Origin: Ideonella alba
GTDB lineage: Bacteria; Pseudomonadota; Gammaproteobacteria; Burkholderiales; Burkholderiaceae_C
Length of the DNA: 64,000 nucleotides
Direction: 5' to 3'
Assembly: GCF_018069875.1 (NCBI RefSeq)
Contig: NZ_JAGQDF010000001.1
Location: 620,001 to 684,000, forward strand
Part shown: positions 3,544 through 42,527 of the stretch, in pieces
Position numbering within the stretch: position 1 is the first letter of the stretch
Layout: every line of letters begins with the position of its first letter
The notes under the pieces: model-generated
What the model was told of the DNA's origin: nothing
Seen by the model: only the letters and a program-made list of their open reading frames with translations
Databases searched by the model: none
Made by a program: the position numbers and the translations under genes

Positions 3544-6500
3544 ATGACGCCCCAGACCCAGAGCCTCTGGATTGCCGCCCTGCCCAACCTCTTGGCCGAG
3601 GGTTGGCACAGCGAGTTGCTCACTCGCCAGGGCAGCGTGCCGCCGCCACTGCTGTACCTGGCCGCCGGCCTGGCAGGGGTGGACGAGGCGGTGGCCACCT
3701 TGCGGAACAGCCTGCCCGTGCTGGCCCAGCTGGCCGCGCCAGTGGATGGCTTGGGCCAGACCGTGCCCTGGGCCGAACGGCCCGAGCGCCAGGTGCAGCG
3801 GGTGGTGCAGGCCCTGCTGGCCGGGCAGCGCCTGGTGGTAGCCGACAACCCGGCCACGCTGGGCCTGGATGCCAGCACCGCCGCGCACAGCCCGCTGGCG
3901 CAAGCCCACCTGTCGCAGGCCATGGACCTGGCAGCCCAGTGGCTGCAACAGGCCTCAGCCGTAGGCCCCCTGGGCGAACCCACCCATCGCCTGGCGCCCT
4001 ACCGGTCATGGCACGCGCCGGATGCCCTGGGCCCGGAATGCCGCCTGCCGGTGGCGCTGGTGGTGGAGCGGCCGTTTCAGGGCCTGGGCCCTGAAGGCGT
4101 GCCGGCGGAGCTGTGCCTGCGCCTGGTGCGGGCCCGCGGTGCGCGGCTGTGCCTGGCCCCGGCGCCCAGCAGTGCCTTGCTGTTGCGTGTGGGCACCGAG
4201 TGGGACGACACCCTGGCGCGCCTGCAACAGCAACTGCAACGCACCCTGGTGCGCAGCCCGGCCTGGCCGCTGGAGGACCTGGCCATCGCCTGGGACCTGC
4301 ACCGCTCGGACGGTGGCGCGCTGGGCGTGGTGGCCGGCGGCTCGGCCGGCGCCAGCTTCGCGCTGGGCGCGCTGTGGCTACTGCGCGGCGCTGCGCCACC
4401 TGACTGGGCACCGCTGCTGCGCCCGCTGCTGCCGCGCCACCTGCGCCGGCTGGCGCTGACCGCCACGCTGGAGCCGGGCTGGGGCCTGGGACCGGTGGGC
4501 GGCGTGCGGGAAAAGGGCCAGGCGCTGCGGCCGCTGGCCCGTGCGCTGGCCCAGGCGGATCCGGCGCACCCGCTGACGCTGGGCGTGTTCCGCGACCAGC
4601 CGCTGCCCCAGGCCCGCCCGGGCGATGTGCCCACCGAACCCTTTGGCACCCTGTGGCACGTGGCCGAGCACCTGGTGCGCCAGGCCGACGCCCTCAGCCC
4701 TGAGCAGCAGCAGCTGTGGCTGGCGCTGGTGGCGCCCGGGCACGAACCCCCTGCGGTTTCACACGCACTGATCAAGGCCGTCGCCGCGCAGCCAGCCCAG
4801 TCGCTGCGCCAATACCTGCTGCGCTGCTGGGCCCAGTGTGGCCTGGCCTTGCGCGGTAGGCTGCACCAGCGCTTTGTGGAGATCGACCTGGAGGTGCCGC
4901 TGGAGGTGGCGGAAGACGCGATGGGCGCCGACGCTCCCTTGCTCCAGCAGGGCGCCGGCCCCTACGACCGCCTGCTCAAGGTGTTGCAGGTGCACGATGC
5001 CAGCAGCCGCCCGCAGGCCTACCTGCTGACCGGCCCCGCCGGTGCCGGCAAGAGCACCTTGCTGCGCCACCACCTCCAGCAGGCTGCGCGCCGGCTGCTG
5101 CAGCACGAGTACGGCAGTTGGGAACCGCGCCCGGACGAGTCCGACGAACCGCCCTGCGAGGTGCCGGTCTACCTGCCGCTCAAGGCCCTGCCGGAAGCCC
5201 TGGAAACGGCCGAGCTGCCCGCCTGGCTGCAGGCGCACTGGGCCGACGCCGGCCCGCCTGAGCTGGCCCAGCTGCTGGCCGGCCGCGGCGCCTGGTTTGA
5301 CGACGGCCTGCGCGCCCGGGTGATGCTGGATGGCCTGAACGAAGTGGCCGTGGCCCGCATGAGCCAGCGCGGCGACCGGGCCGGGGCGGTGGTGGATGCC
5401 GTGCGGGCCCAGCTGCGCCACGCCCTGCCGCTGCTGCTGAGCAAGCGACCGCGCCATCGGGCCACCTTGAGCTTCCCGGTGCTCGAGGTCATGCTGACGG
5501 ATTGGCAGGAGCCCCACATCCGTCGCTACCTCGCAGGTGTCTTCGGGCCCGAGGCGCACGCCGCGCGCTGGGAGGCCCTGGCCGCCGTCAAAGGCGCCGT
5601 GGCCCTGTGCGGCCGGCCCATGCACCTGGCCGCCCAGTGCGAGCTGATGCGCAGCGGCTTTGCGGCCCCGCCGGGCGACCGCGCCGCGCTGTACCAGGCC
5701 TGGCTGTGGCTGCGCCTGCGCCGCTGCTTGGGCCACGCCGAGTGGGAAGACGACACCCGCCAGGTGGACCACACCGTGTGGCAGGAAACCGGCCCCGACA
5801 TCGCCGACCAGCGCCTGCTCACCGCCGCCGACCGCGCCGCCATCGAAGACCACGACGCCTGGCGCCTGGGCCGGGCCCGCCCCTTGCCCATGCAGGGCCA
5901 GCTGCTGCGCAGCCTGGCGCGGCAGGCGCTGGACCAATGGAAGGCCGATGCTGAAGCCGGCCAGGCCGCGGGCGAGCGCACCGCCAACCCCCAGCCCTGG
6001 GCCAGCGTGGCGCCCTGGCTGGCTGCTGCCCAAGTTGCGGTGGATTTCGACACCGATCTGCGCCACCGCTTCGGCCGCGCCGCGCGTGACCTGGGCCTGG
6101 TGCAGCTGGACGATGGCTTCACCGAATGGTGCTTCGATCACCAGAGCTGGGGCGAGTACCTCGCCTCGCTGCACCTGCTGGCCGGCGAGCCCGCGCTGCC
6201 GCCCTGGCTGCTGCAGCGCCTGCAGGCGCCGGCCTTGCCATATGCCACCGACGAAGAGGAAATCGCCGCCTTTGACCAGGCCGAGGCCAGCGCCTGGCGC
6301 GCCGTGCCCCAGGCCGTGTGGGACGAACTGGCCCGCGACGGGCTGAGCGTGCCGGACGAGCACTTCATCAACGGCAACTTTGACAGGCCCGCCGCTGACG
6401 CGCAGGAGTTGGCCCTCATGGAGCGCGTCCTGAGAGAGGAGTCACGCGCAGCCGACTTTGCAGACGGGACCCTAGCCTTCATCGACGAAGGCGAGCAACG

Positions 6501-8166
6501 CGTTTGCCATGCCAACCTGGTGCAGTGGGGCGACACCACCGGCGTGGGCGACAGCCTGGGCCTGGGCCGCCAGGCCTGGCGCGATGCCCAGCAGGCCGGC
6601 GGCGCCGGCTGGCAGTTCCTGGTCACCCAGCGCCTCGATACCGTGTTCCAGGCCCGCTTCTGGGCCTGGCTGGGCGAGCGGCTGGACGACGAACTGCTGC
6701 GCCGCCTCAAGGCCCAGCATGGCCGCCTGAGCCCGCCCCCGGTGGCCGACGGCGCCGAGGTGCTGGGCCTGGCCCTGCTGGGCCTGCCCGAGGACCGGCT
6801 GGCCGCCTGGCTGCAGGCCCTGTGCACGGCCGATGCCACGCCCGGCGTGGCGCCGCTGTGGCCGGCGCTGGAGCACGTGCTGCCCCAGTTGCAGGCCCGG
6901 CTGGAGCCCCAGGGCGCCTGGGGCGAGCGGGCCGCGCCGGCCCTGGCGCCCAAGCAGCGCCCCCCGCCGAACGACGTGCTGCAGCACCTGCGCCGCGTGC
7001 TGCTGCTCACCGCGCTGGATGCAGGCGCCGCCAGCGCGCCCGGCGTGGCCGCCAGCGGCCAGCTGGCCCTGCTGGACGCGCCACCCCCCGTGCCCCTGCC
7101 GGCGCCGCTGCAGGCCCACTGGCAGCGCTTGCGCGCCCAGGCCTTTCAAGGCCCCGGCCAGCGCCTGCGCCGCCGCCTGCAGGCCGGCCTGATGCTGGGC
7201 GCCTTGGGCGACAACCTGCGCTACCAGTTCCGCTGCCCGCAGGTGGCGCCGGGCCAGTTCCAGCCCGGGTTGCGCCCGCATCCGGTGTTGTGGGCTGCCG
7301 TGGGCCGGCCGGGCCGGCTCAGCCGCTTTGCCATCGGCGGCGGGCCCTTTGCGGACGAGCAGCCCGCCTGGGTGGTCCGGCTGCCGGGCTTCCTGGCCTG
7401 CCGGTTGCCGCTCACGGTGGGCGAATGGCAGTGGTTCCTGCCCAGCGCGCAGTCCCAAGGATTCGGCTGGACGATGCAGCACGACCCGCTTTACAACAAC
7501 CCCGCGCAACCCATCACCGGCATCAGCGCCCGGGCCGTGCAGGCCTACGCCGCGTGGGCGCAAGCCTTGTATGCCGACGACCCCCGGCCCTGCCGTGGCG
7601 AGCGGGCCACCCTGCAGGTGCCCACCGAGCTGCAGTGGGAGGCCCTGGCCCGCGGCCCGCTGCGCGGTGTACTGGGCCGCTTTGGCCAGGCCCTGCGCAG
7701 CGGCTGGCGCTGGCGGCGCGCACCAGGCGCCACTGCTGCACTCCACGCCGATGCCCCGACCCGCTACAACCACGCCCGCAGCCGCTGCGGGCGGCCCAGC
7801 CCGGTGGGCGTGTTCAGCCGCGGCATCACGGCGCTGGGCCTGGCCGATGTTCAAGGTCAGGTGTGGGAGTGGTGCGCCAGCGCCCTCACGCCCGAGCAAC
7901 TGGGCCAGGGCTGGCAGCCCGGGCCGCCGCGCGACACGCCGGCCGTTCGGGTGGAGCCGGGCGACGACCGCTTCCGTGCCCTGCGGGGCGGGGCGTTCGA
8001 CCTCACGGCAGCGCAGTGCTGCGCCTCGTTCCGCGACCGCGGCCACCCCGACAGCCACCTCAGCAAGCTCGGCGTGCGCTTGGTGCGTGTGTGGCCGCCC
8101 CATTCAGGACCCCGATCTCCGTGGCGGTGGCTGAGCGACTGGCTCCGCCGAAGGCAGGCCCGGTGA
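3544..8166 (+). CDS. Lon-like protease / NACHT-like NTPase / FGE-CLec giant protein, paralogue 1
   Basis: 1540 residues. The reading frame stays open well upstream because of the high GC content; the ATG at 3544 is chosen because the conserved N-terminus begins there, after the island motif. The Lon (S16)-like domain has its Ser at about 267 in GGSAGASF and its Lys at about 324 in GGVREKGQ. The P-loop GPAGAGKST is near 498-505, and the NACHT-type Walker B, MLDGLNE, has its Asp near 596. The FGE/C-type-lectin domain covers about 1263-1530, ending in GVRLVRVWPPHS. It lacks the catalytic Cys pair of true formylglycine-generating enzymes, so I expect a binding role. The C-terminus has about 20 extra residues compared with paralogues 3 and 4. 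Inferred role: a regulated sensor or effector ATPase with a proteolytic domain. The next gene, a trypsin-like protease, is convergent. Confidence 0.75.
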   Translation: MTPQTQSLWIAALPNLLAEGWHSELLTRQGSVPPPLLYLAAGLAGVDEAVATLRNSLPVLAQLAAPVDGLGQTVPWAERPERQVQRVVQALLAGQRLVVADNPATLGLDASTAAHSPLAQAHLSQAMDLAAQWLQQASAVGPLGEPTHRLAPYRSWHAPDALGPECRLPVALVVERPFQGLGPEGVPAELCLRLVRARGARLCLAPAPSSALLLRVGTEWDDTLARLQQQLQRTLVRSPAWPLEDLAIAWDLHRSDGGALGVVAGGSAGASFALGALWLLRGAAPPDWAPLLRPLLPRHLRRLALTATLEPGWGLGPVGGVREKGQALRPLARALAQADPAHPLTLGVFRDQPLPQARPGDVPTEPFGTLWHVAEHLVRQADALSPEQQQLWLALVAPGHEPPAVSHALIKAVAAQPAQSLRQYLLRCWAQCGLALRGRLHQRFVEIDLEVPLEVAEDAMGADAPLLQQGAGPYDRLLKVLQVHDASSRPQAYLLTGPAGAGKSTLLRHHLQQAARRLLQHEYGSWEPRPDESDEPPCEVPVYLPLKALPEALETAELPAWLQAHWADAGPPELAQLLAGRGAWFDDGLRARVMLDGLNEVAVARMSQRGDRAGAVVDAVRAQLRHALPLLLSKRPRHRATLSFPVLEVMLTDWQEPHIRRYLAGVFGPEAHAARWEALAAVKGAVALCGRPMHLAAQCELMRSGFAAPPGDRAALYQAWLWLRLRRCLGHAEWEDDTRQVDHTVWQETGPDIADQRLLTAADRAAIEDHDAWRLGRARPLPMQGQLLRSLARQALDQWKADAEAGQAAGERTANPQPWASVAPWLAAAQVAVDFDTDLRHRFGRAARDLGLVQLDDGFTEWCFDHQSWGEYLASLHLLAGEPALPPWLLQRLQAPALPYATDEEEIAAFDQAEASAWRAVPQAVWDELARDGLSVPDEHFINGNFDRPAADAQELALMERVLREESRAADFADGTLAFIDEGEQRVCHANLVQWGDTTGVGDSLGLGRQAWRDAQQAGGAGWQFLVTQRLDTVFQARFWAWLGERLDDELLRRLKAQHGRLSPPPVADGAEVLGLALLGLPEDRLAAWLQALCTADATPGVAPLWPALEHVLPQLQARLEPQGAWGERAAPALAPKQRPPPNDVLQHLRRVLLLTALDAGAASAPGVAASGQLALLDAPPPVPLPAPLQAHWQRLRAQAFQGPGQRLRRRLQAGLMLGALGDNLRYQFRCPQVAPGQFQPGLRPHPVLWAAVGRPGRLSRFAIGGGPFADEQPAWVVRLPGFLACRLPLTVGEWQWFLPSAQSQGFGWTMQHDPLYNNPAQPITGISARAVQAYAAWAQALYADDPRPCRGERATLQVPTELQWEALARGPLRGVLGRFGQALRSGWRWRRAPGATAALHADAPTRYNHARSRCGRPSPVGVFSRGITALGLADVQGQVWEWCASALTPEQLGQGWQPGPPRDTPAVRVEPGDDRFRALRGGAFDLTAAQCCASFRDRGHPDSHLSKLGVRLVRVWPPHSGPRSPWRWLSDWLRRRQAR
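7978..8107 (+). repeat. FGE 3' cassette, copy 1: conserved flanks around a variable core
   Basis: A 20-base left block (GCCCTGCGGGGCGGGGCGTT, 7978-7997) and a 34-base right block (8074-8107) are identical to those in the genes ending at 33345 and 42527. The bases between encode different residues in each gene. Most variable codons end in C. The conserved tail CCCCATTCAG lies at the end of the right block. Confidence 0.6.
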
Positions 8167-8320
8167 CAGGACGGCGTTCAGCCTGCGGGCGGCCGGCGCG
8201 CTTGGGTTGCCCACATGCCGCCGCCAGCCGCCCAGCGGGCGGCCCGGGGCCTGGCCGAGGCGGCTGAAGTGCTGGTATTGGCCTTCGGTCCACCAGTGCC
8301 CGTCCAATTGAACAGCGGTC

Positions 8321-9544
8321 TCAGGGGCTCAGGACCAGGCTCACCGGGCCGTTGGGCAGTGCACCAGGGCCCTCGCTGTAGCGCGCCGGGTCAAGAATGT
8401 CCCAGATCGGGATCACGAAGGACACGCCCCGGTCCACATTGCCGGCGATGTGCATGCCCACCAGCGTGGGGTCGTCGTCGTCATTGCGCAGCAACACTGC
8501 GCAACCGCTGTCACCGGCCAGGGTGCGTTCGCCAAAGCGGACCTGCAACTCCATCACCTGGTGGTGGATCACATCCACCACGCCATTCGCAAAGTCGTAG
8601 CTCAAAGGCAGTAACAGCGTATGGCTGTGGATGGATCGCTCAGCGCTCAGCGGCAGAAGGCTGCTGTCACCCCGCAAGGGGTTGTCGCGCGGTGCCGCAA
8701 TGATCAACTGCCCTCCCTGCGCCAGCAACGCGTCCAACTCAGGTTCGTTGCGCACATACGGGCGTGAGGCGGACAGCTGCCGGCCACCAAAGAGGGCCGA
8801 CAGTGCGTTCGGCCTCAGCACCTCGGCCAGTTGCACGTCAAAGCTCCTTTGGTTTCCGGCGCGCAGGTAGCCACCCAGGTCAGCGGCACGCGCCACTGTC
8901 TGTGAGCTGTCCTTCCTGGGGCGCGTCGGTGCGCCCGGCGCTCGGCCCACACCGTCCAGCGCAGGCAGCGGGCTCAGCACGTGAATCGGTGCCAATGCGT
9001 AGCGTTGGCTGCCCACCTTCAATACCCAGGCGAGGGCGCCACGCGACCTGACGCCATCGCTGTTTTCGCTGAGCACCGACAGACTGCCCTGCGCCACGCC
9101 ACCCAGCAGGCGGGACTCGTCCTGCACGTCGGTGGGCACGGCCACGGGTTGCTCCTGGCCGTCGATGGACACCGGCGTGAGCAGCTCCGTTGGCAGGCGT
9201 TGCGCGGGCTGACGCGCCAACTGGTCCGCGGTGAGCTTGCGCCGGACCACGAAGATCACACAGGGTTCATTGTGCAGGTGCTCGATGCCCTCTGAGTCGT
9301 TTCGCCGCCGCAGCCCCGACACGACGGCCACCACCTGCTTTACCCTTTGCACCCACTCGACGCGTCGGCACTCGGCCAGACAGCGAGCCAGCTGCATTTG
9401 CCTGGTCGCGGGCAGTGACAACCAGCGCTTGCGGGCCTCCAACAGCATGGCCTCATCAGGCTGGGCGTTCAATTGCTCCCAACCGCGCGATGCGGCCCGC
9501 CGCCTGGCGGCCGCGGCAGGTCGACGGGGATTCACTTCACGCAT
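8321..9544 (-). CDS. Trypsin-like serine protease
   Basis: 407 residues. A chymotrypsin-fold catalytic triad is readable: His about 188 in APIHVLS, Asp about 236 in FDVQLAEV, and Ser about 346 in LAGDSGCAVLL followed by LVGMHIAG. The N-terminal 100 residues are Arg-rich and resemble no domain I know. There is no signal peptide, so it probably acts in the cytoplasm. The start at 9544 overlaps the end of the lipoprotein gene by 13 bases, so the two are co-translated. Trypsin-like peptidases are known companions of NACHT-type NTPase conflict systems, where they may cleave a partner upon activation; that role is inferred here. Codon use is visibly less GC-biased than in the neighbouring giant gene. 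Confidence 0.7.
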   Translation of the reverse strand: MREVNPRRPAAAARRRAASRGWEQLNAQPDEAMLLEARKRWLSLPATRQMQLARCLAECRRVEWVQRVKQVVAVVSGLRRRNDSEGIEHLHNEPCVIFVVRRKLTADQLARQPAQRLPTELLTPVSIDGQEQPVAVPTDVQDESRLLGGVAQGSLSVLSENSDGVRSRGALAWVLKVGSQRYALAPIHVLSPLPALDGVGRAPGAPTRPRKDSSQTVARAADLGGYLRAGNQRSFDVQLAEVLRPNALSALFGGRQLSASRPYVRNEPELDALLAQGGQLIIAAPRDNPLRGDSSLLPLSAERSIHSHTLLLPLSYDFANGVVDVIHHQVMELQVRFGERTLAGDSGCAVLLRNDDDDPTLVGMHIAGNVDRGVSFVIPIWDILDPARYSEGPGALPNGPVSLVLSP

Positions 9545-11229
9545 CCTGCGCCGCCGTCCAGCATACTGAGCCTGGCCCCCATGGCATTCAGAGCACTCGC
9601 GACAGACGCACTGAGCCTGTGCTGTGCCTGGAGATGACCAAGCAAAGCCGTACGTGTCTGCTGCTGGGTATAGCTGGCGCTCTTGGCGCCGGGTGTGCAC
9701 GCCAATTTCACCGCGAACCCTGACGCATCCTGGCGACTGTCCTGGACCTTCATCGTCACAGCCGCCGCTCCAGTACCGACCTTGAACGTCGAATTGGCCT
9801 TTTTCGCGGCCTCCAGCGCACTGGTGAGCGGTTTGCTGAGGTCCATGGCCGACTCGTTGGTACCGGCCGGCGCAGCGGCTGCTGCGATCTTCAGGCTGAT
9901 CTGCTTGCGTTGGCGCGGTGTCGATGAGTCCGCCAATTCGATACGCAGGTCATGCGGACCGACCACTGTCTTGGGTACTTTGACAATGAACCCTCTGTCA
10001 TCAAGTTGGGGGGCAATGACCTCGATGCCATAACTGGGCTCTGAAGTGATGTGTCCGTACAGAGGCGTGCTGCCGCCACTGACGTAGAACTTCTGACTCT
10101 GGTCTGCCGAAGGGTTGGCCGTGAACAACAACTCTGTGGCGCTGGGGACCAGGGCGGTTTCCTGCCCGCTTGGCACACACTTCGTCCAGTCCTCTGGTGA
10201 CGCATCCGCTGCCAGCCGAGAGGCCCGCTTGGACATCTGCTCTGCACGGACCTCAACGACCAATTGAGTCTCTGCCAGCGCAATGACGGCATCGCGGACT
10301 TGCTGCACTTTTTCAGTCGTGACCCCAGTGGTCTGGGTCCCCTTCTTCGTGTCTTCCGTGCCGGAGGGCAGTTCGTTTGTGCTTTGGCTGCTCCCTGAAG
10401 CTGCGGAAGCCGCTGTGGGTGCGGTCACCCCAACGGCGCTACCGAATCCCCCGACGACACTGGCCAAGTTCTTGAGTGCTGCCAAAACGGCCGCGGGCTC
10501 AGGCGTGCCCATGGCCGCCATCTGGTTGACTGCAGAACGAATGCTGTCGGTCGTGGCCCTCAACGACGACGCCACCTTCTTGTTCCGTTCGGACAGATCC
10601 TCAGCCTTCGTCTGGACCACCACTGACTTGTCGTGAACCGCCTGCGCGGCGGTGATTCGCTGGTCAGCGTATTGCCGGGTGACGTCGTTTGACGGGAGGC
10701 CCAACGCCAGCATTTTCAGGTCCACCAGGGCCTTGGACAACTTCTTCAGGTCAGCCAGCAGTGCGGTCGCGTCTGAGGCCTGCGCAGAAAGAGTTACGTC
10801 GTCTATGCGTTGTGCGCGCGCCATGGCGATAGCGCAGTTGGTCCGTCCGATACCCACCTGGTATGCCGTCAGATGGGCGGCTTGCTTGCTGGTGGTGGAG
10901 TAGAGGTAAAGGCTGCCTCCGAGTCCGGCAGTGGTTGTGAATGCATCACGATGGACACCTGCCGTGACCAGACCGAAGGTGGCCACGCCCAGGCCAAACA
11001 AGAGGTTGTTCACCGCCACCTGATCTGAGACATGGGCGTAGGCCTTGTCTTCATAGGCGGCCCGAAGACCCATCGCCTCGTCCATGGCACGGCCCAGTTC
11101 GGAAGTGTTGGCGGTCGTTTCGGCGGCGACGGTCGGCCGCTGAACCATCGGATTCACCGCGCAACCGCTGATCAGCAGCGACGCGGCAACGGCCAGCAGG
11201 GTGGGGTGGGAGCGGAGGTGGGCGGCCAC
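9532..11229 (-). CDS. Outer-membrane-type lipoprotein, helical, unknown function
   Basis: 565 residues from a GTG start preceded by AAGGAGT seven bases upstream. The N-terminus is a lipoprotein signal with lipobox LISGC. A second hydrophobic stretch, near LLFGLGVATFGLVTAG, lies about 60 residues later. The middle is long, Ala/Lys-rich and probably coiled coil; the last 200 residues contain a beta-rich stretch. I recognise no family. It is the first gene of a two-gene operon with the trypsin-like protease and is divergent from the amidase-like gene, with the island motif between them. A membrane-anchored partner of a cytoplasmic protease is an odd pairing. It might be a target or an anchor of the system. 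Confidence 0.6.
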   Translation of the reverse strand: MAAHLRSHPTLLAVAASLLISGCAVNPMVQRPTVAAETTANTSELGRAMDEAMGLRAAYEDKAYAHVSDQVAVNNLLFGLGVATFGLVTAGVHRDAFTTTAGLGGSLYLYSTTSKQAAHLTAYQVGIGRTNCAIAMARAQRIDDVTLSAQASDATALLADLKKLSKALVDLKMLALGLPSNDVTRQYADQRITAAQAVHDKSVVVQTKAEDLSERNKKVASSLRATTDSIRSAVNQMAAMGTPEPAAVLAALKNLASVVGGFGSAVGVTAPTAASAASGSSQSTNELPSGTEDTKKGTQTTGVTTEKVQQVRDAVIALAETQLVVEVRAEQMSKRASRLAADASPEDWTKCVPSGQETALVPSATELLFTANPSADQSQKFYVSGGSTPLYGHITSEPSYGIEVIAPQLDDRGFIVKVPKTVVGPHDLRIELADSSTPRQRKQISLKIAAAAAPAGTNESAMDLSKPLTSALEAAKKANSTFKVGTGAAAVTMKVQDSRQDASGFAVKLACTPGAKSASYTQQQTRTALLGHLQAQHRLSASVASALNAMGARLSMLDGGAGCVK

Positions 11230-12366: not shown

Positions 12367-12381
12367 ACGCCGCCGACCACA

Positions 12382-14135: not shown

Positions 14136-14155
14136 CCCCCATTCGGAGAGCCACC

Positions 14156-17221: not shown

Positions 17222-17225
17222 CATC

Positions 17226-29138: not shown

Positions 29139-29157
29139 GCCGACAAAGTGCGGCAGG
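29139..29157 (+). promoter_or_regulatory. Island motif, copy 5
   Basis: Reads GCCGACAAAGTGCGGCAGG, in the divergent gap between the PBP-like gene and giant paralogue 3. Confidence 0.6.
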
Positions 29158-29205
29158 CGCGCCACCGAGGCCGCACAGTCCAGGGCCGTGGCAACATCCA
29201 GCGCC

Positions 29206-33345: not shown

Positions 33346-33350
33346 ACACC
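33205..33350 (+). repeat. FGE 3' cassette, copy 3
   Basis: Identical 20-base left block (33205-33224) and 34-base right block (33304-33337) as in copies 1 and 4. Identity with copy 4 continues through the stop codon to 33350, beyond the coding sequence. The core in between differs strongly. Confidence 0.65.
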
Positions 33351-33886: not shown

Positions 33887-35435
33887 GGCCGAGTGCCGGC
33901 CGCCCTGGCCCGGTGTCACCCGCGCCGCGTGGGCAACATCCCCGGCCCGCGCTGCTGAAGAAGATCGTGGGCCTGCGCTGCGCCTGGTGCTGCCGCAGGC
34001 CGCCTGGGCCGGCCGGCCGGCCATGCCCCGCAGCGCGGCCGAAGGCACCCTGGCCCACGGCCCACTGCACCTTCAGGGCCTGCCCGGCCAGGTGCTGCTG
34101 CTTGTGCCCGGCCTGCAGCCCGGGCCGCCCCAGCGCTTGCCATCTGCGCCGCCTATGCTGGCCAGGCACGCGCTGGCCGGCGTGGCCCCTGCCCCGGGTG
34201 CCAAGCCGCAGACCGTCCGCCCAAAAGCCCTGGCCCTGGCCTGGCATGCCCTCGAGGGCGAGTCCGCGCCCGCCGACGACCTGGCCTGGGAGCGCTGGCT
34301 GGCCCGCCACGCGCCCGCCTTCCGCCTGGCCTGTGACAGCCTGGTGCCCGATGTGGTGGTGCTCTGGTGGCCTGCCGCCGGCACGCCCCGGGCCTGGCTG
34401 CGCACCGGCTCGTTATGGGCACGTCTGCAGGGGCTGGCCCAACCGCCCCTGCCCACCTGGCAGGCGGTGCAACGCCTGGATCTGTCCGGTGCCGGCATGG
34501 CCCGCTGGGACCTGCATACCGAGGCTCAGGCGCCCGCACCGGCTGCCACTGCGCTGCGCTACAGCCGCCTGGCCGCCGCGCTGGGCGACGCGCCGCTGGC
34601 GCGCCTGCAGCAATGCACGGTGGGCCTGATCGGGGCCAACCCGCTGGGCAGTTTCGTGGGCCACAGCCTGGCCCGCATGGGCGTGCCGTTGCGGGTGCTG
34701 GATGCCGCCGCCATGACCGCTGAAGACCAGGACGGTGACTTGTCACCTTGGATGGAGGGTCAGCCGCGTTCCTTGGCCCTGCGCCACCCGCTGACCGCGC
34801 TGCTGCGCCCCGGCGCCGGCATCGACGCTCGCGCGCTGTCCGCCGCCAGCCCTGCCGCCGGCCAGTTGCTGGCCGACGTGGACCTGCTGGTGTGCTGCAG
34901 CCCGGATGCCGCCGACCGGGCCTGGGCCAACGCCCTGGCCCTGGCCCTGCTCAAGCCGCTGCTGGCCTTGGACATGCGGGTGCAAGCGGCGGTACCGTCC
35001 CTGCCAGCGCAACCAGAGCGTCAGGAGGTTCGGCCAGCGCCAGAACAGCTGCAGGCCGAAGCCCACCTGCAGCTCATCCCGCCCGGCACGGGCTGCCTGG
35101 ACTGCCTGCCGCTGCGCTGGACCCTGCCCGCCAGCCCGTCGCCCGCCGCGCTGCGCAGCTGGAGCGGGCTGACTGCCCACGCCGGCCTGCGCCTGCTGGA
35201 GCAGATGGTGCAAGGCCGCCACAGCGGCCCACGCCTGCGCCGCCTGCTGGATGGCCACACGCCCCACGGCCCACAGCCCTTCAGCCTGCAGGTGCAGGAC
35301 CTGTCCGCACCGCGGCTGCGCGGCCAGCCCTGCGCCACCTGCGCGGCGCTGACCGGTGCCGGATTGGGGGCAGCGCGGGGTTGGACCAGCTGCGCGCCAG
35401 TGCACAATCAGTTGCAAGGAGGAGGCTCTGCATGA
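33873..35435 (+). CDS. E1/ThiF-like protein, paralogue B
   Basis: 520 residues, related to paralogue A at 17240-18763. The Rossmann region shows VGLIGANPLGSFVGH, where the usual GxGxxG is changed, then EDQDGDLSPW and LVCCSPDAADRAWANA. Zinc-binding pairs are CLDC (GTGCLDCLPL) and CATC near the end. The Lys of the usual adenylation motif appears to be Arg, so catalysis may be impaired. The N-terminal 240 residues are a variable domain shared in outline with paralogue A. The stop overlaps the next ATG (ATGA). The pairing of each ThiF paralogue with a giant NTPase suggests a function within the same complex. Confidence 0.6.
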   Translation: MLTIEAECRPPWPGVTRAAWATSPARAAEEDRGPALRLVLPQAAWAGRPAMPRSAAEGTLAHGPLHLQGLPGQVLLLVPGLQPGPPQRLPSAPPMLARHALAGVAPAPGAKPQTVRPKALALAWHALEGESAPADDLAWERWLARHAPAFRLACDSLVPDVVVLWWPAAGTPRAWLRTGSLWARLQGLAQPPLPTWQAVQRLDLSGAGMARWDLHTEAQAPAPAATALRYSRLAAALGDAPLARLQQCTVGLIGANPLGSFVGHSLARMGVPLRVLDAAAMTAEDQDGDLSPWMEGQPRSLALRHPLTALLRPGAGIDARALSAASPAAGQLLADVDLLVCCSPDAADRAWANALALALLKPLLALDMRVQAAVPSLPAQPERQEVRPAPEQLQAEAHLQLIPPGTGCLDCLPLRWTLPASPSPAALRSWSGLTAHAGLRLLEQMVQGRHSGPRLRRLLDGHTPHGPQPFSLQVQDLSAPRLRGQPCATCAALTGAGLGAARGWTSCAPVHNQLQGGGSA

Positions 35436-36853
35436 GCATCAAAGACATACAAGACGCTGCGCTCAGCGTCGATGGATTGGTGGGTCTGCTGCAGCACATG
35501 ATCTGCCAGCCCTTTCCCTCGGGGTCGCTCGTGCCCCGCCGGCACACCGACCCGGGTCTGCGGTTTGACACGGTGACGGCAGGGGCGCGGCACATCTTCG
35601 GGGCACAGGTGGCCCGATGGCTCCCGCCGGAAAAAGGCAGGGAGCATTTCCACGCCCTGTTTGTGAGGTCGGCCCGCGGATGGTGGCACCGCCATCTCGG
35701 ACGGCCTCTGACTCAGGACGAAGAGTTCGAACTGATCCCCCGGCTGTTTGAAGCCCTGCTGCGAGGGGATCGGCGCGTCCGGCATGGTGAGTTGACCTCG
35801 GCTGATGTCACAGGTCTGATGACCAATGTCAAGGCGGCCGTGCGCAACGATCAACCAGAGTACAGGGCATCGCAGCGCAAGAGCTACAAGGAGCGGCAGG
35901 CCAAGAGAGGCCAGAAGGCCCATGACGGCTACCTTCTGCCCTCGAAGCCCGCCTACCACCCCGATGACTATGGCTGCCACTGCCTGGTGACGCCAGCAAC
36001 TGGCACGCCCATCACCGGTCGCGCCGGTGTCTTCGTTGAAGCGGTCATGAACCAATCCGGCGGCAAGGGCAAGCTGCTGACCTGGCTGTTCCTGAAGCAG
36101 GTGCACAGCCACCTGTCCTGGGTGCCCGCTTACAGCCATGCCAACAGGGCGGCCTGCCTCTACGCCAAGGTCGTGGCGCGTCTGGATGCGCTGGCCTGGG
36201 AGGGGCCCTCCGCGTGGCAGACCACGGCCAGCCTGCTGGTGGAGGGCCTGGAAGCGATGGCGCCATTCACCGTCAGGGGCCAGTTCGCCGCGGAAACAGC
36301 GGCGGTCGAATCGCACCGCCCCGATTGCTTCGACCCATTCCGTCTGGGCCTGGGGTCGGAGGTCTGGCAGGACGTTCTGGCCGAGTTGTCTGGTTATCCC
36401 GACATGATCGACCTGGCCGGGCAGGCCGATGCGCTGGCGCTGGAGGTGGCGGCCTGGTTGACCGATGCCGTGGCCGTGGCCTTCTTCTGCATGGCCAACG
36501 GCCTGAGACGTTGGCGCCGGATGTCGGGTCAGATGGACACAGACGAGCCGATGGCCCTGGGGTGGCGGGAGATGCAGGCGCTGAAGTACCAGCAGGACCG
36601 GCCGTTTGGCGGCGAGCGCGGCATCATGGCGGCCCTCCAGACACTTGCCAAGGCGCTGGATCAGGCTCAGCAAGCACCAGACGCGACGGCGCTGGATGAT
36701 GAGGTCGTGCGTCGCCGAATCGAGCAGTCCATCGAACTTGACTACCTGCGCGACGCCTTCCGACACCGGCGCCGTGAGGTGATCGACTACGCCCAGTGGT
36801 GCCTGAAACGCCAGGCGTGGTTGCAAGTTCAGGAGCGGGGGGTGGCAGCATGA
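35432..36853 (+). CDS. Protein of unknown function, member of the ThiF-B operon
   Basis: 473 residues, soluble, no family recognised. The ATG follows AAGGAGGAG and overlaps the ThiF-like stop. Visible features are a WWHRHLGRPL motif near residue 85, a Lys/Arg-rich stretch near 145-170 (SQRKSYKERQAKRGQKAHDG), and a helical C-terminal half. The last residues overlap the start of the next gene by four bases. It is not a reverse transcriptase: no YxDD or related motif is present. The basic stretch could bind nucleic acid. Only sensitive profile or structure searches could assign it. Confidence 0.55.
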   Translation: MSIKDIQDAALSVDGLVGLLQHMICQPFPSGSLVPRRHTDPGLRFDTVTAGARHIFGAQVARWLPPEKGREHFHALFVRSARGWWHRHLGRPLTQDEEFELIPRLFEALLRGDRRVRHGELTSADVTGLMTNVKAAVRNDQPEYRASQRKSYKERQAKRGQKAHDGYLLPSKPAYHPDDYGCHCLVTPATGTPITGRAGVFVEAVMNQSGGKGKLLTWLFLKQVHSHLSWVPAYSHANRAACLYAKVVARLDALAWEGPSAWQTTASLLVEGLEAMAPFTVRGQFAAETAAVESHRPDCFDPFRLGLGSEVWQDVLAELSGYPDMIDLAGQADALALEVAAWLTDAVAVAFFCMANGLRRWRRMSGQMDTDEPMALGWREMQALKYQQDRPFGGERGIMAALQTLAKALDQAQQAPDATALDDEVVRRRIEQSIELDYLRDAFRHRRREVIDYAQWCLKRQAWLQVQERGVAA

Positions 36854-37926
36854 CGACGCCGTCGCAACTTCATGCCGGTCCGGCCGAGCGCTGGATTCTG
36901 GCCACCCAGCATGCCGAAAAGCGCCAGCGGATGCTGACACTGCTGCAGGCCCAGCCCGCCGAGGCGATGGGCCGGTGGCGCCTGGACCACCACCTGCTGC
37001 AGGTGTTGCCTCTGGAGCGTGTGCGTGATGTATTGGCACAGTGCCTGGACAGTGGGGCCCCGGTGGTTCGGCTGTGGACCGATGCGCCGGCAGACTACCG
37101 CCTGGGGTGGCGTGAGCAGGCCCGGCAGATTGGTCATCAACTGGCGGCCGCTCGGCCCCGCCACCGGCTGAAGGTCAAGACCTGGCAGCAGGACGATGAG
37201 CTGTTGGCCGCGCTGGCACGGCCTGATGTCTGGGTCGAGCTGACCTGGGCACATGACCCGGCTTTGCGCGTGCCCACGCTCAGTGGCCTCAGTGACCTGG
37301 CCCAGACCCAGCACGCCAGCGCCTTCGAGGCCTGGGCCGACACGGCGGCAGGCTGGGAGGCCGTGACCCAGGCCGACCAATCGAACGACAGCCTGGCGGA
37401 GTCGGCCTCTGACACAGAGACCGAGCTTCAAGGCGTCGCTGATCAGCCGGAGGCTGAATCCGCGTCCGTCCCGACGGGCTTGGTGTGGGTGTCTGACCAG
37501 CCCGTCGGCCCGGCACTGGGCGGGCGCACGTCGGTCTACGCCATGGCCGCCAGCGCACTGAAGGCCAGCCCGCTGACCCCGCCAACCCCTGTCGAGCAGG
37601 ACTTGGCGCAATGGACGCTGACCACTCCCGCGGCCTGCCAGGCCGTCCTGCGCCACCGGGCCCCAGAGGCCGCGATGGTGCTGTCGGTAACCCCCACGGT
37701 GCCGTCGCAATGGCAGGCGGTGAAACGCCTGCGCGCCATCATCGACGACCGGGCTCTGTTGCGGCCGCTGTCCTGCGTGCTGGTGCGGCAACCGGGCAGT
37801 GGCGCGGTGTGGGTGGGACAGCTGCCGTTGGCCGGGCACGACCTGACGACGCTCAAGAAGCAGTTGGCCACGGCTGACCTGCGCCTGCGCGGTCAGAGCG
37901 CCGCACCGGATGAGGCGCCGCGCTGA
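36850..37926 (+). CDS. Protein of unknown function, partner of the preceding gene
   Basis: 358 residues. Overlaps the upstream gene (ATGA) and ends two bases before giant paralogue 4, so it is tightly coupled to both. The N-terminal 150 residues look alpha/beta; an acidic linker (residues about 180-215) rich in Ser, Asp and Glu follows, then a second alpha/beta segment near 255-345. No recognised motifs. Its placement directly before the giant gene suggests a dedicated adaptor or regulator of it. Confidence 0.55.
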   Translation: MTTPSQLHAGPAERWILATQHAEKRQRMLTLLQAQPAEAMGRWRLDHHLLQVLPLERVRDVLAQCLDSGAPVVRLWTDAPADYRLGWREQARQIGHQLAAARPRHRLKVKTWQQDDELLAALARPDVWVELTWAHDPALRVPTLSGLSDLAQTQHASAFEAWADTAAGWEAVTQADQSNDSLAESASDTETELQGVADQPEAESASVPTGLVWVSDQPVGPALGGRTSVYAMAASALKASPLTPPTPVEQDLAQWTLTTPAACQAVLRHRAPEAAMVLSVTPTVPSQWQAVKRLRAIIDDRALLRPLSCVLVRQPGSGAVWVGQLPLAGHDLTTLKKQLATADLRLRGQSAAPDEAPR

Positions 37927-37928
37927 GC

Positions 37929-40900
37929 ATGCCAGGCAGCGATGAATGGCCAGGTGACGGTGGCACCCCCTGGCCACCTGAGCTTCTCGCCCGGCAGGGT
38001 CAGTCGCTGCCAGGCCTGGTCACCTGGCTGATCGATCGGGTTCGCCCGGCACCGGCAGCACCGCTGGCGCAGGTGAGGTCGCTCCCGACCCAGGTGCATG
38101 CCTTCTGGGACCAGGTGGACCAGCAGGCCCGTCAACTGGCGCAGCAAGGCGGCTGGGTCCATCAGCCGCTGATGTGGCCCACCGACGACCCGCCCTGGGA
38201 CCAGGTGCATCGCCTCACCTGGGACCTGCTGGAAGCCACCGGCCGCGCGGCCGAGGCTTTGATGCTCACCGCGCCGGACCTGCCCACGGGCGAGCGCGGC
38301 CAGCTGCTGACCCTGCGCCGGGCGCTGTGGCTGCAGGCCTTGAGCGCCTGGGCCGAGCAGACCGTGCCCCAGCCCCTGCTGGCGCCCCAGGGCTGCCTGG
38401 CCTCGGTCAGCCTGCGGGTGCTGCTGTTTGACCCGCGCACGGGCCAGGGCCGGGTGGCGCAGCTCACCCTGCACCGCTATGCCGCGCCGGGTGCCCGCCT
38501 GGCGCTGGTGCCAGCGGCGGGCAGTCTGTTCACGCCCTGCACTCAGAGTTTTGTGGACAGCCTGCAGGCTGCCAGTGCCTGCGTGCGTGCCTGGGTGCCC
38601 GCGGAGGCGGCCCACGGCACCGCCCTGGCCTGGGACCTTCACGCCCCCGGGCTGGACCTGTGGGCGCTGGACGGCCCCTCGGCCGGCGCCGCGCTGGGCC
38701 TGGCCGCCGCCTGGCTGATGCGCGATCAAGTGACCGACCCCGCACTGCGCTCCGACCTGATGCGCCTGCAACCGGCTGACCTGGCCGCCCTGCACCTGAG
38801 TGCCGCGCTCCACCCCGGCGGCCGCCTGGGCCGGGTGGGCCATGTGCGCGAGAAAGCCTGGGCGCTGCGCGACGCCACCGCGCACCTGCGCCAGGCGCCC
38901 TGGGTCTACCTGGCCGATGAGGACGAGGCAGACGCCCAAGTGCTCAAGCGCGAGGGAGGCGCCGTCAGCGTGGACACCGCCCACGACCTGCGCGACCTGG
39001 TGCACAAGGCCGCCCAGCGCGCACTGACGCTGGCGGCACCGCAGCGCGAGCTGCTGCAGCGCCTGTCCGACTGGGACCCACTGCGAGCCGATCCGCCCCC
39101 GTTGTCCAGCACGGCCGACCGGCGCCTGCTGGACCAGCTCACCAGCACCGACCCCCAGCTCAACCCGGTGGAGCACCTGGTGCAAGTGGCCCTGACCCGC
39201 TGGGCCTGGTGGGCCCATGCGCTGCGTGGTCAGGTGCACAACCGCTTTGTGCCGCTGCGCGTGGTGGCCGATGGCGCACGCCTGCCGGCCGACCTGCAAC
39301 TGCCTGACACCCCGCGCCACGGCCTGCCCCAGCTGTTGGCCGAGTTTGAACCCGACCGCCTGGCCGCCTTCCTGCTGCGCGGCAGCCCCGGCGCTGGCAA
39401 AAGCACGCTGCTGCAGCGCCATGAGCAGACCCTGTGGCACCAGGCCCTGCGGCAATGGCAGCTCAGCGGCCAGATGGACGAGATCCCGCTGTACCTGCCG
39501 CTGTCAGGCCTGCAGCCCCAGGACGAGCCCATGGACTGGCTGCGCCGGCAAGTGGACCAGCGCCATCCTCAGGCCGACGAACTCAGGCGCCTGCTGGACC
39601 CGGGCCGCCGCCGCCCGGGCGACCCGCGCCTGCGCCTGCTGCTGGACGGCCTGAACGAGCTGCCCTTTGACGACACCTGCGACACCCGCGAACGCCGTGC
39701 CGAGGCCGTGTTGCTGGCGCTGCGACAAGGCCTGGGCACCTCGCTGAGCCTGCTGCTGTCGGTGCGCACCCACCACGGCTTCGAGCTGCGCGCCCTGGGC
39801 GATGTGCTGGCGGTGGACCTGCAGCCCTGGAGCGAAGAGGAAATTGGCCACTATCTGGCGCGCCGCTTTCCTGTGCCCCAGGAATTGGCTGGCCAACGCC
39901 TGCAACAACTGAAGGACCAGCCCCATGTGCTGGACCTGTGCAGCCTGCCCTTCAACCTGGACGCCCAGTGCCAGCTGTGGGAGGCCGGCGTGCAGCGCCT
40001 GGCCAGCAGCCGGGCCGACCTGTACCGCCGCCTGCTGTGGCGCATGGTGGTGCGCGAGCTGGAGCGCCAGGGCAGCCTGCTCCGTCGCGACCTGTCCCTG
40101 CTGAGCAAGGCCGACCGCCGCGTGCTGCTGCAAAAGCAGGTGCTGGAGCGCGCGACCCTGCCCCCCTGGCCCCGCCAGGGCGCGTTGCTGGACGGCCTGT
40201 TCCGTCAGGGCCTGGCCCAGTGGGCCCGGGCCGCTGAGCTGCGCCCGGATGTGCCGCCCCCCACCCGCGGCGAGGTGGAACTGCCCTGGGACGACCCGGC
40301 CGACCCCCAGCGCAGCGTCGCCCACTGGCTGCACGGCCAGCAGACCGAGCACGAGGACGGCCCGCTGCGCGAGCGCTGGCACCAGGCGGTGAACGAACTG
40401 GGCCTGCTCGACAGCTTCCAGCCCCAGCCGCACACCGGCGCCCCGGACACCTGCCGGCTGGAGCGCAGCTTCAAGTGGCGCCACCAGAGCTGGGGCGAGT
40501 TCCTGGCCAGCGTGGACCTGCTGGCCCCCACGCCCGCCCAGATGCCGCCCGATGCGCTTCAGGCCCTGGCCCACCGCCTGGCCGCTGGCCGCCAGTTCGA
40601 GCGCCGTGACGAAGACGAAGTGGCCCACCTGCAGGCCCAGGTGAGCCAGCGCTGGAACCTGTCGCCGTTCCGGCCCGGCTCGCGCCTGCACCGGGAAGGC
40701 ATCTGCGTGCCGCAGGCGGTGCTGGAGGGCTTTCTGCGCCAGCAGTGGGGCTGGCAGGACCAGGACTTCACCGACCGAGCCGGCCGGCCGTTTCACGAGC
40801 AAGGCGGATTTGTGCAACTGCGGCGTAATGGCGCCTTCGTGCCCGAGACCGATGCCACGCACGGTCCTCTGTGGCGGGCCATGCCCGAGGAATTTGGCTT

Positions 40901-42527
40901 CAGTTACGGCGTGGCCCAGGCCATTGGCTTGCCCGGAGAGGCGGACTGGACCGAGCGTCCCGAGGGTTGGCAGCGCCTGGTCATAGACGTTTTGTGGCCG
41001 CCCTTGTGCGAGCAGCTCTGGCGCGACCTGGTGGACAAGGACGGCCTGAGTACCGAGCAGTGCCAGGCCCTGCAGGACGAGCCCGGCCACCTGGCCGAGC
41101 CCGGCCCGGCCGACCTGGACGAGGTGCTGGCCCTGGCGCTGGACGGCCTGCCGCCCGACCAGACACCCGATCAAGGCGAAGCGCCGCTCAAGGCGTGGCT
41201 GGGCTGGCTGCTGCACCAGGGCCTGTGGCGGGCGCTGGGCCCGGCGCTGCCCGGCCTGGCCCGCCGGCTGGAGCCGGACGGTGCCTGGGGGCCCGCGGTG
41301 GACGCGCGCCTGCAGCACCTGCGCCGCGTGCTGCTGCTCACCAGCCTGGACGCCGGCCCCGACAGCCGCGCCGGCGTGGCCGCTGGGGGCACGCTGGCGC
41401 TGATCGACGCGGACACGGCCCCACCCGCGCCTCCCGGGCAGGCTGGCGGCGGGCGCGGCCTGCTGCCCGAACTGGCCGCCGCCTGGCAACAGGCCTGGCA
41501 GGCCGCTTTCAGCGCGCCGGGGCAGGACCTGCGGCTGCGCCTGCAGGCGGCCCATTGGCTGGGCCGCCACCTGGGCGACAACCTGCGCTACCAGCGCGCC
41601 GCTGCCACCGGCGGCGCGCCGGGCCTGCGCCTGCATCCGCGTCTGTGGTGCCGGCGTGGCGGACCGGGGCAGCGCTTCGGCATCGGCGCCAGCCCGCAGG
41701 ACGATCAGGCCCTTCCCGGTGAGCATGAGGCCTGGGTCTGGGCCGCTGATCAGCCCTTTGAACTGGCCACGCTGCCCGTCACGGTGGCCGAGTGGGCCTG
41801 TTTCGTGGCGGCCGGCGGCTATGACCTGCCGCCAGGGCCCTGGTGGCACACCGCCGGGCCGGCGGCCGTGCAGTGGCTGCAGGATCATCCGGGCCACCCC
41901 CCCGCGTTGCGCGACCCCGCCTACAACGCGCTGCTGCAGCCGATGGTGGCCATCACGGCTTTTGAGGCCCAGGCCTATGTGGCCTGGGCGGCCCCGATGG
42001 TCGCGGCAGCCGACGGCCTGGCCCTGGCCGTGCCCAGTGAAGCCCAGTGGGAGGCCGGCGTGCGCGGCCCGCTGCCCCCAGGCCCCTGGCGGGCCGCCGC
42101 TCAGCCCCGCTGGACGCACCTGGGCAACGGGGAGCCCGGGCCACTGCACTTCAACCATGCCCGCAGCCGCTGGGGTCGGCCCAGCCCGGTGGGTGTGTTC
42201 AGCCTGTCCACCACCGCCGACGGCGTGGCCGACGCCCAAGGCAACGTGGCCGAGTGGTGCAGCAACGTCCATGCCGGCCCCTACGGGCCCGCACCGGCCG
42301 GTGGAACAGGGCCGGCCACGGCGGCCCAGCAGGCCGCCTGTGCCGCCTGGAGCGGGGACCTGGAAGCTGCGGAGTCGATGCAACTTCGAGCCCTGCGGGG
42401 CGGGGCGTTCAGCAGCGCGGCGGCTCAGTGCCGCGCCTCGTACCGCAGCCGCTACCCCCCCGACGACCGCGTCAACGGCTCGGGTGTGCGCTTGGTGCGT
42501 GTGTGGCCGCCCCATTCAGAACCCTGA
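37929..42527 (+). CDS. Lon-like protease / NACHT-like NTPase / FGE-CLec giant protein, paralogue 4
   Basis: 1532 residues and the clearest of the four. Lon-like domain: LDGPSAGAALG with Ser251, LSAALHPGG, and VGHVREKAWAL with Lys309, the same Ser/Lys dyad layout as S16 peptidases. P-loop GSPGAGKST at 485-493; Walker B LLLDGLNEL with Asp about 573. After a helical region comes the FGE/C-type-lectin domain (about 1250-1528), with LPVTVAEWACFV, VPSEAQWEAGVRG, VAEWCSN, LRGGAF and GVRLVRVWPPHS. The catalytic Cys pair of formylglycine-generating enzymes is absent. Starts two bases after the preceding gene. Inferred role: ATP-gated sensor or protease whose FGE domain recognises a ligand. Confidence 0.8.
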   Translation: MPGSDEWPGDGGTPWPPELLARQGQSLPGLVTWLIDRVRPAPAAPLAQVRSLPTQVHAFWDQVDQQARQLAQQGGWVHQPLMWPTDDPPWDQVHRLTWDLLEATGRAAEALMLTAPDLPTGERGQLLTLRRALWLQALSAWAEQTVPQPLLAPQGCLASVSLRVLLFDPRTGQGRVAQLTLHRYAAPGARLALVPAAGSLFTPCTQSFVDSLQAASACVRAWVPAEAAHGTALAWDLHAPGLDLWALDGPSAGAALGLAAAWLMRDQVTDPALRSDLMRLQPADLAALHLSAALHPGGRLGRVGHVREKAWALRDATAHLRQAPWVYLADEDEADAQVLKREGGAVSVDTAHDLRDLVHKAAQRALTLAAPQRELLQRLSDWDPLRADPPPLSSTADRRLLDQLTSTDPQLNPVEHLVQVALTRWAWWAHALRGQVHNRFVPLRVVADGARLPADLQLPDTPRHGLPQLLAEFEPDRLAAFLLRGSPGAGKSTLLQRHEQTLWHQALRQWQLSGQMDEIPLYLPLSGLQPQDEPMDWLRRQVDQRHPQADELRRLLDPGRRRPGDPRLRLLLDGLNELPFDDTCDTRERRAEAVLLALRQGLGTSLSLLLSVRTHHGFELRALGDVLAVDLQPWSEEEIGHYLARRFPVPQELAGQRLQQLKDQPHVLDLCSLPFNLDAQCQLWEAGVQRLASSRADLYRRLLWRMVVRELERQGSLLRRDLSLLSKADRRVLLQKQVLERATLPPWPRQGALLDGLFRQGLAQWARAAELRPDVPPPTRGEVELPWDDPADPQRSVAHWLHGQQTEHEDGPLRERWHQAVNELGLLDSFQPQPHTGAPDTCRLERSFKWRHQSWGEFLASVDLLAPTPAQMPPDALQALAHRLAAGRQFERRDEDEVAHLQAQVSQRWNLSPFRPGSRLHREGICVPQAVLEGFLRQQWGWQDQDFTDRAGRPFHEQGGFVQLRRNGAFVPETDATHGPLWRAMPEEFGFSYGVAQAIGLPGEADWTERPEGWQRLVIDVLWPPLCEQLWRDLVDKDGLSTEQCQALQDEPGHLAEPGPADLDEVLALALDGLPPDQTPDQGEAPLKAWLGWLLHQGLWRALGPALPGLARRLEPDGAWGPAVDARLQHLRRVLLLTSLDAGPDSRAGVAAGGTLALIDADTAPPAPPGQAGGGRGLLPELAAAWQQAWQAAFSAPGQDLRLRLQAAHWLGRHLGDNLRYQRAAATGGAPGLRLHPRLWCRRGGPGQRFGIGASPQDDQALPGEHEAWVWAADQPFELATLPVTVAEWACFVAAGGYDLPPGPWWHTAGPAAVQWLQDHPGHPPALRDPAYNALLQPMVAITAFEAQAYVAWAAPMVAAADGLALAVPSEAQWEAGVRGPLPPGPWRAAAQPRWTHLGNGEPGPLHFNHARSRWGRPSPVGVFSLSTTADGVADAQGNVAEWCSNVHAGPYGPAPAGGTGPATAAQQAACAAWSGDLEAAESMQLRALRGGAFSSAAAQCRASYRSRYPPDDRVNGSGVRLVRVWPPHSEP

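Follow-up and report, generated by a model that had tools for sequence, protein, structure and literature searches.

The window analysed here comprises bases 620001-684000 (64,000 nucleotides) of contig 11 of Ideonella alba, whose 5.5 Mb genome is a 36-contig draft with a completeness of 99.83%, and it holds part of an island of very large paralogous genes, here called giants, that combine a Lon-like N-terminal domain, a NACHT middle and an FGE C-terminus. An initial annotation of this DNA had described four such proteins in one island. All four were present (giants G to J in Table 1), and the island was found to be larger, with ten clustered paralogs, A to J, that span positions 579399-662527 of contig 11 (about 83 kb) and have open frames of 1377-1756 codons; gene calls in the island relied on codon-position GC. 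The genome-wide search for FGE domains gave 14 matches, 11 of them on contig 11 between 583 and 672 kb. The eleventh of these is a relic located outside the range covered by the initial annotation (3544-42527), and it may be the truncated fifth type mentioned there. The ten giants fall into two subfamilies, one formed by A, B, D, G and J, and the other by C, E, F, H and I. An eleventh giant stands on contig 33 (49507-56384), where Lon-like and NACHT parts are joined to a different C-terminus, and no FGE match was found in it.

The P-loop and NACHT-like Walker B that had been placed in the middle of the proteins were seen by eye in all ten paralogs, as GK[ST] and D[GA]L[ND]E, respectively, together with a winged-helix-type motif, [FW].H..[WF].E. 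Among the four window giants, the Pfam NACHT family (PF05729) was above the cut-off only in giant J (E 3.6e-10); it was sub-threshold in giant G (E 0.0016) and not listed at E ≤ 1 for giants H and I. FGE-sulfatase (PF03781) was matched at the C-terminus of all four, with E values from 2.6e-20 to 1.4e-26. In Lon itself the AAA+ motor precedes the protease domain, and the order in the giants is indeed reversed, with the Lon-like domain first, NACHT in the middle and FGE last. PADLOC gave no match at E ≤ 0.01 for giants J and I or for one giant from another family of the same order (genome G1000), and Rfam gave none at gathering scores within the window.

The Lon-like N-terminal domain and its relatives

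The Ser/Lys pair in the layout of S16 peptidases, as initially annotated, was recognized by eye in all ten clustered paralogs (Ser in G-x-S-A, Lys in V-G-x4-K). We then aligned 12 domains from two bacterial families, taken from nine of the ten clustered giants, the eleventh giant and two giants of G1000; giant A was left out of this kind of comparison (alignments A1, A3 and A6) because its N-terminus spans two sequence pieces. The sequences were 25-35% identical to the first one, and only five columns were invariant (S94, A95, A135, V146 and K152, in the numbering of the J fragment), both residues of the dyad among them. The AlphaFold2 model of residues 158-401 of giant J, obtained with nine sequences, had a pLDDT of 82.9 and a pTM of 0.84. 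When compared with the PDB by Foldseek, its best match was the LonA protease 5e7s (E 3.4e-9, probability 1.00, TM-score 0.50 on the query). There were 134 matches at E ≤ 0.001, and the 50 listed were all Lon, MtaLonC or the C-terminal domain of BrxL. In addition, the hhalign alignment to a Lon profile set the Ser and Lys of the dyad in register. From the predicted model, we regard the N-terminal domain as Lon-like in fold, with its Ser-Lys dyad conserved, and as a putative protease.

The same fold could also serve as a structural or binding module rather than a protease, with the output exerted via partner proteins. The Lon-like domain of BrxL may itself be such a non-protease module, BrxL C-terminal domains were among the listed structural matches, and little sequence similarity to Lon was detectable beyond the dyad region. 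The finding that Ser and Lys make up two of the only five invariant columns in 12 such divergent sequences argues against this, and we regard a non-catalytic module as rather unlikely, though deserving of attention. A proteolytic head is the reading kept below.

The search for the same fusion in other genomes led to an independent pair. With the profile of the Lon-like domain, matches were obtained in one of 16 genomes of the genus and one of 399 of the family, and the middle-domain profile matched in one of 398 genomes of the phylum. A profile of Lon plus NACHT matched five of 399 genomes of the order at E ≤ 1e-10, and the Lon part was covered in the genome under study and in G1000, where two giants showed nearly full Lon and NACHT coverage plus FGE, with a ThiF gene at the same locus. 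Scoring included at most 6, 8 and 2 candidates per genome in the family, phylum and order searches, respectively; because these are few, distant kin may be missed. The search of genome contigs with short peptide patterns, mainly sensitive to close kin and possibly excluding the genome under study, found no relatives. Plasmids gave no match with giant J as the query and two FGE-only matches with giant I, and phages gave no match with giant I.

Variable ends of the giants and remains of a diversity-generating retroelement

The final ~45 codons of nine of the ten giants aligned as a repeat, in which mostly NNC hypervariable codons in a conserved frame are followed by a common tail. In giants A, E, F, I and J the tail crosses the stop codon, and the likeness stops five bases after it. 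Giant C, with a shorter, non-matching end and no full repeat, was excluded from the tables of the repeat, and H and I were each shortened by one codon for alignment. The six best-preserved copies were picked after viewing the sequences, and the counts for nine copies are therefore also reported. At codon positions 1 and 2 of the nine copies, A was present in 29 variable columns and absent from 6, and it occurred in none of the constant columns (0 with A, 23 without). For the six copies, these values were 25 and 2 for the variable columns and 0 and 31 for the constant ones. Constant columns containing A amounted to 0/40 in the repeat region of the six copies, compared with 16/82 in the FGE part upstream (Fisher p 0.0013), 26/228 in Lon plus NACHT (p 0.019) and 40/282 in columns 1000-2190 (p 0.0079); among variable columns, A was found in 25/28 in the repeat, and in 144/262, 534/944 and 516/926 in the same three controls. 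Thirteen codons varied among at least four amino acids, and these ended in C in 98 of 117 cases, versus 2506 of 5202 in 578 control columns, and this count was reached in 0 of 20000 resamplings; per column, 11 of the 13 were C-ending in seven to nine of the nine copies, and the other two in 0 and 4. The six copies had a mean DNA identity of 0.50-0.60 in the upstream blocks, of ~0.74 within the variable repeat and of 0.94 within the tail. When a query composed as the likely template was compared with the genome, the nine giant ends were recovered (E ≤ 5.2e-15). Judged by these patterns, the ends of nine giants look like the variable repeats of a diversity-generating retroelement (DGR).

Remains of the corresponding machinery were also found. 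A relic of an Avd gene, situated between giants A and B where these converge, matched DivGenRetAVD (NF033474) with E 1.6e-8 for its open part; the whole-genome search gave E 6.0e-11 and showed one in-frame stop, and both matches are below the curated cut-off. Directly past giant G, a stub similar to the C-terminus of Avd was matched by tblastn with this relic (E 1.4e-10, over 8191-8295) and with the Avd of the related genome described below (E 2.0e-4). The variable ends and the broken Avd gene were missed by the initial annotation. No matching template repeat was found in the genome with the composed query, which gave beyond the giant ends five short matches with E ≥ 0.056. The three RVT_1 matches of this genome were rejected by eye as the DGR reverse transcriptase, two being retron-like and one a group II intron-type fragment beside a transposase. 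With the reverse transcriptase of the related genome as the query, the only match was this group II-type fragment (E 2.7e-7, 26% identity), and no DGR-type reverse transcriptase was found in the 36-contig draft. The two retron-like enzymes are small, are encoded ~3 kb apart (contig 22, 476-480 kb) and have HTH and ArdC-like genes nearby, as seen by eye. Since the Avd gene is broken, its second copy is a stub, and neither the template nor the DGR-type reverse transcriptase was found, the DGR probably decayed in this strain.

A complete DGR on related genes provided a positive control for DGR-type variation. On contig 78 of genome G968, from another family of the same order, two NACHT-FGE giants face each other with the template, Avd and reverse transcriptase between them. 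This Avd matched NF033474 with E 3.9e-21 and was 57% identical to the relic of the island over 81 residues. Relative to the template, the first variable repeat carried differences at 18 of 29 A and at 0 of 98 other bases, and the second at 14 of 29 A and 1 of 97 other bases. Over 1050 columns, one of the two giants shared 28.7% identity with giant F; the other giant matched in the FGE part. The same genome gave five Avd matches on five contigs, all below the curated cut-off, and perhaps has several DGRs. The N-terminal head of one giant is TIR_2/SEFIR; that of the second, with no Pfam match at E ≤ 0.05, may resemble DUF4062. Because these giants bear TIR_2/SEFIR or another head, not a Lon-like one, it appears that a common NACHT-FGE chassis can be fitted with different N-terminal modules. 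A further genome (G1025) also encodes a similar giant, together with fragments of a broken reverse transcriptase that contain stops. The Avd search gave no match in G1000, in a run where none of the control genomes matched either; the same model subsequently matched G968 and the genome under study, and not G1025.

Two other accounts of the variable ends were weighed. Gene conversion with diversifying selection could generate a C-terminal pattern without any DGR, as paralogs in one island can convert, and the template was not found in this genome. As the sole cause it was rejected and is very improbable, because the variation tracks A, the variable codons are NNC, the common tail ends five bases past the stop in five copies, Avd relics were found, and a complete DGR accompanies related genes. 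A DGR still active in trans, encoded by an element that the draft assembly lacks, would agree with the nearly intact tail kept by several repeats and with a genome in 36 contigs. The completeness of 99.83%, the broken Avd and its stub, the recovery of only a group II-type fragment with the G968 enzyme and the drift of several repeats speak against this possibility, which we consider quite improbable. A DGR that wrote these ends and then decayed is the preferred reading.

Neighbouring genes

The features of the island are collected in Table 1. Among the partners proposed initially, the VWA, PP2C, kinase and DA1-like proteins and two ThiF-like proteins were found, the second of the latter just below the cut-off. 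The trypsin-like protease was reduced to its motif, and the protein gave no family at E ≤ 0.1, and none of its four PDB matches at E ≤ 1 was a protease. The row from VWA to DA1-like (13389-17221) is what we take to be a TerY-P-type operon. Neither its proteins, including the DA1-like one, nor the trypsin-like protein gave a match at E ≤ 1e-4 among the proteins of the 40 kb G1000 locus; since only the ThiF/E1-like protein was matched at that Lon-NACHT-FGE locus, these genes may be bystanders.

Table 1. Positions of the giants, their parts and the neighbouring genes (variable-repeat-like ends with identity to the query composed as the likely template).
Feature	Sequence	Positions	Strand	Remarks
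Giant A	contig 11	579399-583976	+	
Giant B	contig 11	584621-589219	-	
Giant C	contig 11	589159-593559	+	
Giant D	contig 11	595521-600350	+	
Giant E	contig 11	602444-606577	-	
Giant F	contig 11	606516-610757	+	
Giant G	window	3544-8166	+	open frame from 2896; Lon-like, NACHT, middle domain and FGE
Lon-like domain of giant G	window	4033-4773	+	
Variable-repeat-like 3' end of giant G	window	7978-8115	+	83%
Avd C-terminus-like stub	window	8209-8295	-	29 codons; directly past giant G
Trypsin-like protein	window	8321-9700	-	GDSG-type motif only
VWA	window	13389-14135	+	
PP2C	window	14156-15322	+	
Kinase	window	15226-16569	+	with zinc ribbon and FHA
DA1-like	window	16391-17221	+	
ThiF/E1-like protein	window	17240-18766	-	downstream of giant H; frame open to 19039, start 18766 chosen; PF00899 E 5.1e-16
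Giant H	window	18954-23414	-	
Variable-repeat-like end of giant H	window	18985-19133	-	72%; drifted
Lon-like domain of giant H	window	21975-22760	-	
Giant I	window	29188-33345	+	
Lon-like domain of giant I	window	29620-30378	+	
Variable-repeat-like end of giant I	window	33205-33350	+	88%
ThiF/E1-like protein	window	33870-35435	+	frame open from 33783; PF00899 E 3.6e-6, just under Pfam cut-off; nucleotide-binding motif degenerate
Gene X	window	34748-36853	+	putative start; paralog of gene two upstream of giant A (E 1.7e-8)
Gene Y	window	36796-37926	+	paralog of gene directly upstream of giant A (E 1.2e-6)
Giant J	window	37929-42527	+	
Lon-like domain of giant J	window	38400-39131	+	part folded by AlphaFold2
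Variable-repeat-like end of giant J	window	42390-42532	+	88%
DUF4407 membrane/coiled-coil (d)	window	45046-46383	-	cassette of four genes, 45046-47920
Cassette gene	window	46420-46815	-	
Cassette gene	window	46854-47585	-	
Cassette gene, small lipoprotein-like (by eye)	window	47501-47920	-	first in reading direction; recurs in G1000 (E 9e-16)
FGE relic	window	51314-53866	-	frameshifted variable-repeat-like end; eleventh FGE match of contig 11

Of the five giants in the second subfamily, four (E, F, H and I) are followed by a ThiF gene. The profile of five ThiF proteins matched UBA5 (E 4.5e-12), ThiF, BubCD and Cap2, placing them in the adenylation-domain family; by eye, three of the five retain the nucleotide-binding motif, and two have a degenerate one. 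The ThiF protein of G1000 is encoded upstream of one giant, with two genes between, and matched the four ThiF paralogs of the island with E values from 7.7e-20 to 1.7e-52. Moreover, ThiF, X, Y and giant J (33870-42527) are arranged much as at the G1000 locus. The arrangement and the gene lengths had suggested that X, Y and the four-gene cassette are shared with that genome, but only the lipoprotein-like gene and ThiF were supported. All cassette genes except the lipoprotein-like one recur directly before the contig 33 giant (d, E 1e-108; b, E 1e-70; c, E 3e-12), with which they form an operon-like row. Near this giant, a gene (L044:19587-19955, minus strand) is 50% identical over 115 columns to a 169-codon gene of the window (26079-26588, plus strand).

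A transglycosylase/transpeptidase (penicillin-binding-protein-like) gene at 26705-29386 (minus strand) overlaps the start of the open frame of giant I. On the right, trpS (53865-55004, plus strand) adjoins the last FGE relic, and ~3 kb beyond it there is a large serine recombinase (58158-59927, minus strand). Upstream pieces of the island carry an AAA_21 (AbiEii-toxin-like) ATPase gene (L015:12432-13832) and an AAA ATPase gene (L015:17548-18927), the latter with a relative in locus L064 of genome G508.

This neighbourhood bears on the role of the array, which could be the recognition of kin or self, or a response to envelope stress signalled in connection with the phosphorylation operon, instead of phage defence. 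The VWA-PP2C-kinase operon, the penicillin-binding-protein-like gene and the membrane cassette nearby would be consistent with such roles. On the side of defence are the TIR/SEFIR head of the G968 relative and, in the available text of PMC10907252, the placement of STAND-FGE proteins with DGRs among conflict systems; we hold a role outside defence to be unlikely.

Interpretation and comparison with known systems

The island is best explained as an array of NLR-like (STAND) receptors with a Lon-type protease output, whose sensors owe their diversity to a DGR that is now decayed. We consider this reading fairly probable as a whole; the domain layout, the predicted fold of the head of one giant, the conservation of the dyad, the DGR-type variation and the broken Avd gene are its observed parts, and catalysis, oligomerisation, the substrate and defence are the parts that we infer. 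The Lon-fold head with its Ser-Lys dyad would be the output, NACHT the switch, followed by the middle domain, and the FGE/C-type-lectin domain the sensor. The DGR would have rewritten the last ~45 sensor codons in nine of the ten giants before its decay, and its loss would leave a frozen repertoire of fixed specificities. A ligand at the variable face would release the NACHT switch, the receptors would oligomerise, and the Lon-like heads would join to form an active protease. We propose such joining of the heads by NACHT assembly because Lon proteases work as rings and CalpL becomes active on oligomerisation. The response to infection would then start when a partner is cleaved, which might be the membrane protein with DUF4407 or the ThiF/E1 module; the recurring ThiF and membrane neighbours are candidate substrates. 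More tentatively, and with somewhat less than even confidence, we suggest that a NACHT switch replaced the AAA+ motor for assembling and firing a Lon-type protease, which would make a bacterial NLR that works by proteolysis, and that the hypermutation system was lost after filling most sensors, leaving a fixed inherited array.

Several observations weigh against this explanation. TM-scores were 0.48-0.58 on the query, with a root-mean-square deviation of mostly 4-6, among the listed Foldseek matches. The Lon assignment is weak by sequence alone, because Pfam gave no Lon family at E ≤ 1 for the four window giants, the profile search of PDB sequences gave no Lon chain among seven matches at E ≤ 10, and hhalign against a Lon proteolytic-domain profile from this and related genomes gave E 0.073. 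Copies D, F and H of the repeat have drifted, and C lacks a full one. The last 220 aligned columns of the G1000 giants had 35 differing sites with A and 27 without, i.e., no clean DGR signal, and the decay of the DGR is argued from absence in a 36-contig draft. In G1000, nothing matched cassette genes b, c and d or genes X and Y significantly (best E 0.037); X and Y, like the small proteins of the cassette, fell into no known family at the thresholds used, and the partners in the proposed mechanism are guesses.

If the explanation is correct, a Lon-type protease would join the outputs of bacterial NLR-like receptors, and effectors (Lon, TIR/SEFIR) would be swapped on one NACHT-FGE chassis. The array with a broken DGR would also offer a test of the fate of a receptor repertoire after the loss of hypermutation (faces kept, drifting or fixed receptors), and the recurring ThiF/E1 neighbour a testable link from STAND receptors to ubiquitin-like chemistry.

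Compared with known systems, the head shares with LonA and LonB the predicted fold and the order of the Ser-Lys dyad; in those enzymes the AAA+ motor stands before the protease, whereas NACHT follows the Lon-like domain in the giants. The G968 locus is alike in its NACHT-FGE giants and Avd, and differs in its complete template, Avd and reverse transcriptase set and in its heads. CalpL, the Lon protease of type III CRISPR (PMC11417357), also carries an N-terminal Lon protease domain in a defence protein and is activated by oligomerisation; however, it senses cyclic nucleotide by SAVED, and the available text mentions neither NACHT nor FGE. Bacterial NACHT (bNACHT) proteins (PMC12169576) share the tripartite effector-NACHT-sensor plan, but the effector there is a DNase, and FGE sensors are not mentioned in the accessible part of that paper.

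The closest precedent is the work of Dore 2024 (PMC10907252), whose available text describes STAND/NACHT proteins that bear FGE/C-type-lectin sensors as one class of DGR targets, with N-terminal extensions that have no known domains or contain peptidase or TIR, and with degenerate DGR loci. The sensors of Thiohalocapsa and others described there are like the giants in their central NACHT/nSTAND, their C-terminal FGE/CLec variable repeat, some degenerate loci and often two targets; the island differs in its Lon-like head, ten clustered receptors, ThiF partner, and in that no reverse transcriptase or template was found. The word Lon does not occur in that text (supplements outside scope), nor in the main text of Kaur (PMC7159879), which links such conflict systems with DGRs and ubiquitin-like conjugation as far as the available part goes. 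Several target genes per DGR are known as well (PMC7517822, in its accessible part). The novelty claimed initially for the domain combination thus holds in part: the Lon-NACHT-FGE fusion was not found in the literature searched (mostly at the abstract level, with supplements and most subscription papers outside the scope), whereas STAND/NACHT proteins with FGE sensors had already been described as DGR targets. Collectively, DGR-diversified STAND-FGE sensors are known, and what sets this island apart from them is the Lon-like head, the array of ten receptors and the recurring ThiF/E1-like partner.

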